A stretch of DNA of 46,239 nucleotides from Limnobacter sp. CACIAM 66H1 (GTDB lineage Bacteria > Pseudomonadota > Gammaproteobacteria > Burkholderiales > Burkholderiaceae_B): contig NZ_LUJK01000024.1 in assembly GCF_001601825.1 (NCBI RefSeq), forward strand, positions 1 to 46,239. Reading direction: 5' to 3'. Position 1 is the first letter of the stretch, and every line of letters begins with the position of its first letter. This document shows, piece by piece, positions 32,967 through 39,266 of the stretch. The notes under the pieces are model-generated. The model ran no database searches, was not told where the DNA came from, and was given only the letters and a program-made list of their open reading frames with translations. The translations under genes and the position numbers were made by a program.

Positions 32967-33043
32967 GTTTAGTCTTTTCGCCAACTTAAGTGAAAAACCT
33001 CAGGGGGCTACACTTGTGACAAATATTTGACTTGGCTGGTGAA

Positions 33044-36812: not shown

Positions 36813-37082
36813 ATGGCCATTAAAGTCAGCCCCCAATCGTTTGAATCCATGCGCAAAGTCATGAACGGCTTCTGGATTGTGGTCCCAGCCTATCTGTTGA
36901 TTAGCTTGGTGATGCCTTTCCTGTTGGTTTTGGCCGCCTTGTTACTGGTTGCACACACCTTGGAACTGCCAATTGCATTCCTTCGACTGCGCGGTAAAAA
37001 CCTGCCCACCATGGAAGTGGTGTCAAAAACCCTGCTTTACGGCTTTACCTGGTGGCTGCCGAAAAGCCTCGAAGCCAAATAA
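36813..37082 (+). CDS. Small two-helix membrane protein, possibly DUF1145-like
   Basis: This 89-residue protein has two predicted membrane helices, about 16-52 (FWIVVPAYLLISLVMPFLLV continuing) and a C-terminal hydrophobic part TLLYGFTWWLP. Length, helix layout and the end resemble the DUF1145/YhhL group, but I cannot confirm that by eye. ATG 36813 is chosen with AAGGA upstream; an open frame 34 codons longer would begin inside the promoter. It has its own promoter and is followed by the Pho-box region of plcP. Confidence 0.6.
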   Translation: MAIKVSPQSFESMRKVMNGFWIVVPAYLLISLVMPFLLVLAALLLVAHTLELPIAFLRLRGKNLPTMEVVSKTLLYGFTWWLPKSLEAK

Positions 37083-37116: not shown

Positions 37117-37172
37117 TTGTCAAAAAAGAGTCATATAACCGTCACAAGGTAGTCAAATCGAGCGCGTTTAAT
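37117..37172 (+). promoter_or_regulatory. Tandem (double) Pho box and -10 for plcP
   Basis: Four GTCA half-sites occur at 37119, 37130, 37141 and 37152, exactly 11 bp apart. Written as 7-mers against CTGTCAT they are TTGTCAA, GAGTCAT, CCGTCAC and TAGTCAA, separated by 4-bp spacers that are mostly A/T. This is the PhoB-binding layout (7-bp repeats plus 4-bp linkers), here two boxes in a row. A -10-like TTTAAT (37167-37172) follows the last repeat by 10 bp, the usual PhoB spacing. The predicted transcript start near 37179 places the translation start at 37204. Confidence 0.8.
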
Positions 37173-37203
37173 GGGTGCCATGACAAGAACATGGACATTA
37201 AAA

Positions 37204-38121
37204 ATGCGCTCGAACCAGTTGAATTTCAAGCAGCAACTTGCCGAACAACTGTTTGCGAAAGCGACCACCGAACCACACGCTGAGCCAACTGGTCAGCAAT
37301 ACCATTCTGAAGCTGACCCTGCCGCCGACGATCAGGGGTCAAACAAATACCGCACCATCTGGATTTCAGACATTCACCTGGGTACACCCGGGTGCCAGGC
37401 AGACGCCCTGCTCCACTTCCTGAAACACAATGAAAGCGACACGCTTTACCTGGTGGGCGACATTATTGATGGCTGGCAGCTGCGAAAAAGCTGGTTCTGG
37501 CCACAAAGCCACAACGATGTCATTCAAAAGGTGTTGCGCAAGGCGCGCAAGGGCACGCAAGTGGTGTTTATTCCTGGTAACCACGATGAAGCCGCACGCC
37601 AGTTTGCAGGCATGACCTTCGGCGACATTCCGATTATGGAAAACGCCGTTCACGTGACTGCAGACGGCAAACGCCTGTGGGTGGTGCACGGTGATGAGTT
37701 TGATCAGGTGGTGCGCTACGCCAAGTGGCTGGCCTATCTGGGCGATACGTTGTACAACTTTGCGCTGACTTTGAACCGGGTGTTGAACAATATTCGAATC
37801 AAGCTGGGCTACCCGTATTGGTCACTGTCGCAGTTTCTGAAACAGCAAGTTAAAAATGCCGTGAACTTCATTCTTGAGTTCGAGCACGCTTTGATTCACG
37901 AAGCCAGGCATCGCGGCTACGACGGCGTGGTGTGTGGTCACATTCACAAAGCCGAAATTAAACACGTAGATGGTTTGCTGTACTGCAACGACGGCGATTG
38001 GGTGGAAAGCCTGACCGCGCTGGTTGAGCACCCCTGCGGAAAACTGGATATCGTGCATTGGCCACACCGTGACCTGCCAGCCCGCAAACAAAAAGCGCTT
38101 GCGCACTCGTTAACGGAGTAA
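37204..38121 (+). CDS. plcP: PlcP-type calcineurin-like phosphoesterase (LpxH-related)
   Basis: This 305-residue protein carries the metallophosphoesterase site: D56 and H58 in SDIHLG, D86 in GDIIDGWQ, GNHDE (125-129), H162 in VHGDEFD and GHIHKAE (245-251). It is related to LpxH but resembles, from memory, rhizobial and marine PlcP, which cuts phospholipid head groups to leave diacylglycerol under phosphate starvation. Features such as LYLVGDIIDGWQLRKSWFW and LGYPYWSLSQFLK match that type. The adjacent glycosyltransferase and the Pho boxes support it. Automated annotation may call it UDP-2,3-diacylglucosamine diphosphatase. Start ATG 37204 is chosen because ATGs at 37171 and 37180 lie at or before the predicted transcript start. 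Confidence 0.82.
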   Translation: MRSNQLNFKQQLAEQLFAKATTEPHAEPTGQQYHSEADPAADDQGSNKYRTIWISDIHLGTPGCQADALLHFLKHNESDTLYLVGDIIDGWQLRKSWFWPQSHNDVIQKVLRKARKGTQVVFIPGNHDEAARQFAGMTFGDIPIMENAVHVTADGKRLWVVHGDEFDQVVRYAKWLAYLGDTLYNFALTLNRVLNNIRIKLGYPYWSLSQFLKQQVKNAVNFILEFEHALIHEARHRGYDGVVCGHIHKAEIKHVDGLLYCNDGDWVESLTALVEHPCGKLDIVHWPHRDLPARKQKALAHSLTE

Positions 38122-38126
38122 GCAAC

Positions 38127-39266
38127 ATGCGAATTCTGATTGCAACCGACGCTTGGGCTCCGCAAGTCAACGGCGTGGTACAAACGCTAAGCCAAGTGGT
38201 AGCGCAACTGACTGCGAAAGGACACGATGTCAGGGTGATTCACCCGGGCTTGTTCAAGACAATACCCTGCCCCACCTACCCGGAAATTCGATTGGCTCTT
38301 TGGCCATTCACCCGCCTGCGCAATGAGCTTGACCGATTCAAACCCCAGGCGGTGCACATTGTGACGGAAGGTCCAATCGGCCTGGCAATGCGTTTGCTGG
38401 CGCACGGTCGCAAACTTCCATTTACTACGGCGTACCACACTCAGTTCCCCGAGTACGTCAAAGCAAGGTCGGGTATCCCGATTCGCTTCACTGCCTCCCT
38501 GCTTCGCTGGTTTCACAAACCTTCCCGCGCTGTCATGGTGCCCACCATGTCAGTGATCGAAACGTTAAAGGGACGCGGTTTGAATAATTGTGTGCTTTGG
38601 CAAAGGGGCGTGGATCTGAAACGCTTCAATCCGGAGCAATCCGCGGCCAGCAAGCACATGAGTTACAGCCCACGGGACCTGCCCCATGACGACGCTCAAC
38701 AGGTTGAGTTATTGCGCCGCTTGAATGAATGCAGCGTAGAGAAACCCGTGTTTTTGTACGCTGGTCGCGTCGCGGTGGAAAAAAATCTGGAGGCGTTTTT
38801 AAGCCTGGAGTTACCCGGCGAGAAGTGGATTGCTGGTGATGGACCTGCACGAAAGGCGCTCGAGAAGCAATACCCAGAAGCCAAGTGGTTCGGAATGCTA
38901 AACCACGCAGCGCTTTCCGAGTTGTACAAACGAGCCGATGTTTTCGTGTTCCCAAGCATGACTGACACCTTTGGATTGGTGTTGCTCGAAGCCATGGCCA
39001 GCGGTTGCCCCGTGGCAGCCTTCCCCGTGAACGGGCCGCTGGATGTGGTTGGCAATTCCGGTGCAGGCGTGCTGGACTGGAACTTGAAAACCGCTGCCAT
39101 GGCCGCATTGAAAATTGAACGAGACGTTCCTTTGAAACATGCCAGCACCTTTACTTGGGAAAACTGTGCTGAACAATTCCAAGGCTACCTGGCACCAATC
39201 GGCTTGACCACCACTGCACCCAAGAAGTTGTCAGCCAACCCCAAGCCTTTGTCTAACCGTCCCTGA
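38127..39266 (+). CDS. GT4-family glycosyltransferase, Agt-like
   Basis: This 379-residue GT-B enzyme has an N-terminal RILIATDAWAPQVNGVVQTL (nucleotide-free half, usual GT4 opening), the YHTQFPEYV loop, the sugar-nucleotide side with YAGRVAVEKNLEAF and the acid pair in MTDTFGLVLLEAMASGCPV. It starts 5 bp after the plcP stop, so the two form an operon. The natural reading is a diacylglycerol glycosyltransferase (Agt) that makes glycolipids from the diacylglycerol released by PlcP. The sugar cannot be read from sequence. Confidence 0.82.
   Translation: MRILIATDAWAPQVNGVVQTLSQVVAQLTAKGHDVRVIHPGLFKTIPCPTYPEIRLALWPFTRLRNELDRFKPQAVHIVTEGPIGLAMRLLAHGRKLPFTTAYHTQFPEYVKARSGIPIRFTASLLRWFHKPSRAVMVPTMSVIETLKGRGLNNCVLWQRGVDLKRFNPEQSAASKHMSYSPRDLPHDDAQQVELLRRLNECSVEKPVFLYAGRVAVEKNLEAFLSLELPGEKWIAGDGPARKALEKQYPEAKWFGMLNHAALSELYKRADVFVFPSMTDTFGLVLLEAMASGCPVAAFPVNGPLDVVGNSGAGVLDWNLKTAAMAALKIERDVPLKHASTFTWENCAEQFQGYLAPIGLTTTAPKKLSANPKPLSNRP

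Follow-up and report, generated by a model that had tools for sequence, protein, structure and literature searches.

Organization of the locus

The window, a stretch of 46,239 nucleotides from Limnobacter sp. CACIAM 66H1 (contig NZ_LUJK01000024.1), contains an array of Pho half-sites followed by two genes, all on the plus strand. Four tandem half-sites, TTGTCAA, GAGTCAT, CCGTCAC and TAGTCAA, occupy positions 37117..37156 and were assigned from their 11-bp spacing and their retention in relatives. A −10-like hexamer, TTTAAT, lies at 37167..37172, assigned from the sequence and from its spacing in relatives. The first gene, plcP (37180..38121, with a start at 37180 or 37204, inside an open reading frame of 37171–38121), encodes a PlcP/LpxH2-type metallophosphoesterase, a predicted intracellular phospholipase C; the assignment comes from reading frame, domains, alignment and tree. 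After a gap of 5 bp follows agt (38127..39266), which codes for a GT4 glycosyltransferase and predicted diacylglycerol glycosyltransferase according to its domains, alignment and gene order. A GGAG ribosome-binding-like site for agt falls within the 3′ end of plcP. For an 89-aa frame just upstream of the array (36813–37082), searches of Pfam and NCBIfam at E 0.001 gave no match.

The first gene encodes PlcP

Judged from its sequence, the first gene is PlcP (LpxH2) and not LpxH. In a domain search its product matches general metallophosphoesterase models. Two NCBIfam LpxH models gave it 32 and 46 bits, below their cut-offs of 190 and 134, and in a genome-level search it reached 29 bits against an LpxH cut-off of 190. 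The protein is 54.7% identical to P. aeruginosa PlcP and 52.8% identical, over 250 residues, to S. meliloti PlcP (LpxH2), with which it shares all five metal-binding blocks; identity to E. coli LpxH is 29% over 123 residues. At 281 and 270 aa, respectively, the S. meliloti and P. aeruginosa reference sequences have the lengths that the accessible text of PMC3087551 gives for LpxH2 of these species.

Among the metal-binding blocks, block 1 reads SDIHLG (37366..37383) and block 5 GHIHK (37936..37950), both assigned from sequence. Block 3, GNHDE (37576..37590), has His in place of the Arg that is diagnostic of LpxH, as judged from the sequence and from the available portions of PMC3087551 and PMC5016852. 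The latter source describes the Arg of GNRD as a lipid X-binding residue in LpxH. The former (Opiyo et al. 2010) states that the block-3 Arg is confined to LpxH and missing from LpxH2, and catalogues LpxH2 as a family of unknown function, placed before the Beta/Gamma split. GNHD was present in 110 of 110 PlcP relatives and GNRD in 25 of 25 LpxH sequences. The window protein has the five metal blocks and the GNH[DE] form of block 3 that characterize the PlcP family, and it lacks the GNRD of LpxH.

We compiled a tree of 56 rows, of which 29 were PlcP (the window, three references and 25 of the 110 loci chosen for spread) and 26 LpxH. PlcP and LpxH split with support of 100/100; the bootstrap had not fully converged. 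One distant row, from Thioclava, was kept out of the two groups and sits on a long branch on the side of PlcP. The protein groups with the Sinorhizobium and Pseudomonas PlcP, apart from LpxH, which was the outcome expected from the initial annotation. A fold model (mean pLDDT 72) consists of a metallophosphoesterase core with two inserted long helices. Its matches in the PDB are LpxH and other phosphoesterases with a TM-score of about 0.4, LpxH being the nearest; since these scores are low, the fold shows the superfamily alone and does not decide between PlcP and LpxH.

It could be argued that the gene is a second LpxH, a lipid A enzyme, and that the operon serves lipopolysaccharide synthesis. 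Membership of the same superfamily, the weak match to the two LpxH models, the overall fold with its nearest, low-scoring PDB neighbours and the usual public annotation all point that way. Specifically, the initial annotation had predicted that the first gene would be mislabelled as a lipid A enzyme, and 24 of 32 matches in the plasmid collection are indeed named 'UDP-2,3-diacylglucosamine diphosphatase', the other 8 being without a listed feature. We consider a second LpxH scarcely credible, as the scores lie far under the LpxH cut-offs, block 3 reads GNHD and not GNRD, and the protein falls into a separate clade. Moreover, a true LpxH (209 bits) is encoded separately in the same genome, and an LpxH match was found in 41 of 41 searched family genomes including this one, over the cut-off in 37. 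The P. aeruginosa LpxH2 failed to replace E. coli lpxH, according to the accessible part of PMC3087551. Our results indicate that the Burkholderiales genes of the studied set labelled UDP-2,3-diacylglucosamine diphosphatase are of the PlcP type, mostly with Pho-type promoters.

The second gene encodes Agt

The product of the second gene has GT4 domains and is clearly similar to a characterized Agt, both of which place it in the Agt family: it shares 44.9% identity with P. aeruginosa Agt1 across 352 residues and 50.1% with a plcP neighbour from Sphingomonas. Gene order agrees with this. Of the 110 loci studied, agt lies directly downstream of plcP in 86, two end too early to tell, and none was found in 22. 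One of those 22 (L027) has a stop inside the plcP frame and an Agt match farther along. With more than 50% identity of PlcP to the S. meliloti and P. aeruginosa proteins, about 45% identity of Agt to Agt1 and this adjacency, the reading of the two genes as a plcP-agt pair, already made in the initial annotation, holds. No second Agt was found in the genome at E 1e-10 with the window Agt as query.

The Pho half-site array

The GTCA cores start at 37119, 37130, 37141 and 37152, at steps of exactly 11 bp. Consecutive 7-bp half-sites are separated by the 4-bp spacers AAAA, ATAA and AAGG, with A/T at 10 of 12 positions, and TTTAAT begins 10 bp past the last 7-bp half-site (11 nt past the last GTCA). 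The initial annotation had listed the four GTCA positions, the 11-bp period, the mostly A/T spacers and the hexamer 10 bp on, and every one of these agrees with the sequence. The layout at plcP is that of a PhoB-type promoter, with CTGTCAT-like direct repeats every 11 bp, then a −10 element and no separate −35.

Half-site weights were built from 14 sites, which came from 5 of 7 scanned E. coli K-12 promoter regions. With the half-site matrix the four-unit array scored 11.6 and ranked first among 92,400 positions on both strands of the window, the runner-up scoring 4.6. When the spacing was scanned from 6 to 21, the four-unit score was positive only at 11 bp. The top rank in the window speaks for the doubled PhoB-site layout that had been claimed, and the array is predicted to bind two PhoB dimers. 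Scoring with a PhoB matrix had been named beforehand as a check, and its outcome depends on the number of units: rank 1 for four units, rank 3 or 14 for two. Specifically, the two-unit box at plcP is moderate, at rank 3 in the window with the 18-column matrix (E. coli weights) and at rank 14 of 92,444 with the averaged half-site matrix. Its score with the 18-column matrix and E. coli weights, 12.5, is below those of pst (21.9) and phoB (19.4). Because the two-unit rank is moderate and the four-unit rank is top, the strength of the array lies in repetition.

For the three-unit pattern with at most one mismatch the expectation for the window is 0.34, and two matches were found, both at the plcP array and with no mismatch; at least two such matches occurred in 4 of 100 shuffles of the window. 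In the genome of 3,215,354 bases the exact three-unit pattern has three matches at two places, plcP and pstC, and none in the reversed control. With one mismatch allowed, the genome-wide count is 16 vs 21 in the reversed control, i.e. there is no excess, and the search alone is no proof; phoB and ugd were among its matches. Chance as the origin of the array was considered and is rejected by the rank, the spacing scan, the occurrence at just two places in the genome and the conservation described below.

The best two-unit Pho-like match of the window lies on the minus strand at 33016–33033 (13.8 with E. coli weights) and is probably due to chance; the frame just before it resembles rplT.

Conservation in relatives

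A PlcP match was found in 66 of 151 family genomes, this one included, representing 21 of 43 genera; the remaining 85 genomes were without a match. The 110 loci studied consist of 30 of those 66 and of 80 named loci taken from at least 589 confirmed candidates. It is important to note that this set is rich in close Burkholderiaceae and that counts made on it are not independent. A metagenome-assembled genome (MAG) labelled Klebsiella pneumoniae (L047) has a plcP-agt pair of the Burkholderiales type and is probably mislabelled.

All seven genomes of the genus that gave a plcP match, this one among them, have kept the array, L008 and L009 with weaker leading units. In the wider set, 79 of 110 loci have their best four-unit site in the 420 bp preceding the conserved plcP core, and the other 31 have it elsewhere; for random stretches of these loci the rate is 5.4%. 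For the best two-unit site the corresponding values are 66 of 110 loci and 4.8%. Lack of the half-sites in relatives had been named as an observation that would speak against a Pho promoter, and the half-sites are conserved.

The distance to the −10 element is also conserved. Of 72 distinct promoters, 49 have an AAT starting 14 nt past the last GTCA, and any other offset is found in at most seven. These promoters were picked by half-site score alone, those with a two-unit score below 9 being dropped (the window's own, at 7.7, among them) and only exact duplicates being removed. Promoters of this kind can be sought in the group by a simple rule: half-sites every 11 bp, then a fixed step to the −10 element.

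Start codon of plcP

The initial annotation had moved the plcP start from the first codon of the open reading frame to 37204 on the grounds of the promoter. The first half of this proposal stands: a start at 37171 is disfavoured, as it overlaps the −10 hexamer. Its counterpart is missing in L007 and L008, out of frame in L006 and L010, and in frame in three genus genomes including our own. The second half does not stand in that form, since 37204 is not singled out and the ATG at 37180 fits equally well. The latter lies 7 nt past the −10 hexamer, and an in-frame ATG is found 6–8 nt past the −10 in seven of seven genus genomes. A second in-frame ATG, here 37204, follows at a distance of 24 nt in six of the seven and of 21 nt in L010. 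The relatives provide 63 distinct promoters with AAT at the fixed spacing; 20 of them have an in-frame ATG 4–9 nt past the −10, and in six of these 20 it is the sole start within 45 nt. Another 29 of the 63 have their first ATG 26–32 nt past the −10, which is the place of 37204 and favours that codon. From these comparisons plcP would start at either ATG 37180 or ATG 37204.

Similar arrays elsewhere in the genome

The second exact three-unit array of the genome ends 62 bp before the frame of PstC (557 bits, over the cut-off). An array with one mismatch precedes phoB; the product of this gene exceeds its cut-off (363 vs 296 bits), and a kinase-like frame comes next. Only three units of the phoB array are good, and as a four-unit site it scores 5.9, near the window background of 4.6. 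The array type at plcP is one shared with Pho genes of the same genome and kept in relatives, as would be expected of a Pho promoter.

Binding to direct repeats spaced by about one helical turn is general in regulators of the OmpR/PhoB type. Another member of that family might bind the array and respond to a different signal, and the moderate two-unit score at plcP would be compatible with this. Set against it are the presence of PhoB itself in the genome and the fact that pstC and phoB are preceded by arrays of this type; we regard a different regulator as very improbable and take PhoB to be the likely ligand of the array.

A further array lies before an olsB-like gene (L169, C6:23823-24620, minus strand). 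In the genome the search with PF13444 gave a single match, this OlsB-like acyltransferase; the NCBIfam OlsB models score it at 153–156 bits, short of their cut-offs of 320–350. Its four-unit array scores 25.5, and the best four-unit site of the locus precedes the gene in seven of seven searched genus genomes, own included, with scores of 15.3–25.5. At pst, phoB and olsB of this genome AAT is absent at the fixed spacing, the hexamers there being TAACCT, TACTTT and TACATT, respectively.

A Pho-type array with one mismatch is also found before ugd, the UDP-glucose 6-dehydrogenase gene (C12:56180 in the genome; L124:1501-1526), again with no AAT at the fixed spacing. The Ugd product would feed glucuronosyl-diacylglycerol (GADG) as donor. 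In five genus loci with the gene the motif is the same in three, altered in one and unread in L167; no ugd match was obtained at E 1e-100 in two of seven genus genomes. The whole upstream stretch is conserved too, and we treat the ugd array as a weak lead only.

Association with ornithine-lipid genes

In 13 of the 110 loci (L050, L078, L080, L086, L090, L095, L103, L105, L107, L108, L110, L111 and L113) the gene immediately before plcP is olsB-like. In ten of the 13 a four-unit site scoring at least 14.9 precedes olsB, and in the other three the site is weaker (5.8, 6.1 and 9.7); these values come without a random control. Downstream of plcP, agt is present in 11 of the 13, with none in L080 and L090. 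From gene order and site position, olsB-plcP-agt looks like one operon in these relatives. Four of these olsB-like proteins have OlsB models as their best family match, at 155–173 bits, below cut-off. In Polynucleobacter (L053), plcP has a divergently oriented olsA-like neighbour and shares 4 nt with agt, after which comes an olsB-like gene; the matches to the OlsA and OlsB models are below their cut-offs. Another layout is seen in a MAG labelled Hydrogenophaga (L045), where an agt-like gene (29% identity), a UDP-glucose dehydrogenase gene and plcP stand in a row.

A Pho box before olsB has been reported in Acinetobacter (accessible text of PMC11828411). In Burkholderia sensu lato, Pho boxes were predicted for olsB in 21 of 43 genomes (PMC7814305), similar to the array before the olsB-like gene here. 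That study, as far as its accessible text goes, differs in being on ornithine lipids and does not mention plcP or agt.

Proposed function

We consider it very likely that the locus is a PhoB-activated plcP-agt operon for lipid replacement at low phosphate; PhoB binding, the phosphate response, the substrate and the product are what we infer from the sequence comparisons. At low phosphate, phosphorylated PhoB would bind the four half-sites and recruit RNA polymerase to the −10 element at 37167, substituting for a −35 element, as the layout suggests. PlcP would then remove the phosphorylated head group of membrane phospholipids to give diacylglycerol, to which Agt would add glucose and/or glucuronic acid from a UDP-sugar, yielding a phosphate-free glycolipid.

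The operon might also be Pho-regulated and serve scavenging with no membrane replacement, if PlcP acted mainly on another phosphodiester or Agt on a lipid other than diacylglycerol. Metallophosphoesterases are diverse and sequence cannot give the substrate; moreover, some relatives have plcP with the array and no agt found downstream (e.g. L015, L016 and L032). We find scavenging improbable in view of the identity of over 50% to the S. meliloti and P. aeruginosa PlcP, the usual position of agt downstream of plcP and the association with genes for ornithine lipid, which is another phosphate-free membrane lipid.

Lipid replacement as proposed here could extend in two directions, which we put forward tentatively and together hold to be somewhat doubtful. 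The plcP message may be leaderless or nearly so, beginning at the start codon or 1–2 bases from it, with translation thereby tied to the PhoB promoter. In a wider version, plcP, agt and olsB may make up a Betaproteobacterial lipid-replacement regulon, fused as olsB-plcP-agt behind one array in some relatives.

Comparison with known systems

Replacement of lipids by means of plcP and agt is established in Alpha- and Gammaproteobacteria, as the accessible texts of PMC4796936, PMC8528852 and PMC9239053 describe. The present locus is a well-supported further example of this known kind of system. Its mechanism is not new; its value lies in the lineage, the systematic mislabel and the clean promoter rule. 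The main text of PMC4796936, in its accessible part, has no mention of Betaproteobacteria. Open-access papers found on plcP in Betaproteobacteria, on glycolipid in Burkholderia and on olsB operons gave, in their accessible text, no description of plcP-agt for this group; most subscription journals were outside this scope, so novelty is unproven. A swap of phospholipid for glycolipid at low phosphate would be predicted for soil and freshwater Burkholderiales, as in marine and rhizobial bacteria, and this would change the genome-based reading of phosphorus demand and membrane make-up in the order.

The marine Alphaproteobacteria, e.g. SAR11 HTCC7211 (type 2), were compared by description: plcP adjoins agt there too and a Pho box is predicted (accessible part of PMC4796936). 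In S. meliloti, unlike here, the next downstream gene listed in an incomplete gene table is an MFS transporter and not a glycosyltransferase. The plcP-agt1 pair of P. aeruginosa (PA3219-PA3218) resembles our locus in gene order and in having an upstream Pho box, as described in the accessible text of PMC8528852. The same source assigns synthesis of MGDG from UDP-glucose to Agt1 and of GADG from UDP-glucuronate to Agt2, a second transferase that has no counterpart among our matches in this genome at the E-value given above. The P. aeruginosa copy in L118 is the one to which the identities for PlcP and Agt given above refer; its plcP and agt overlap by 4 nt, in contrast to the 5-bp gap found here. 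L118 is the record of a 96-kb P. aeruginosa plasmid (NZ_CP137508.1) that carries plcP and agt with neighbours, and plcP matches occur in three P. aeruginosa records of the plasmid collection.
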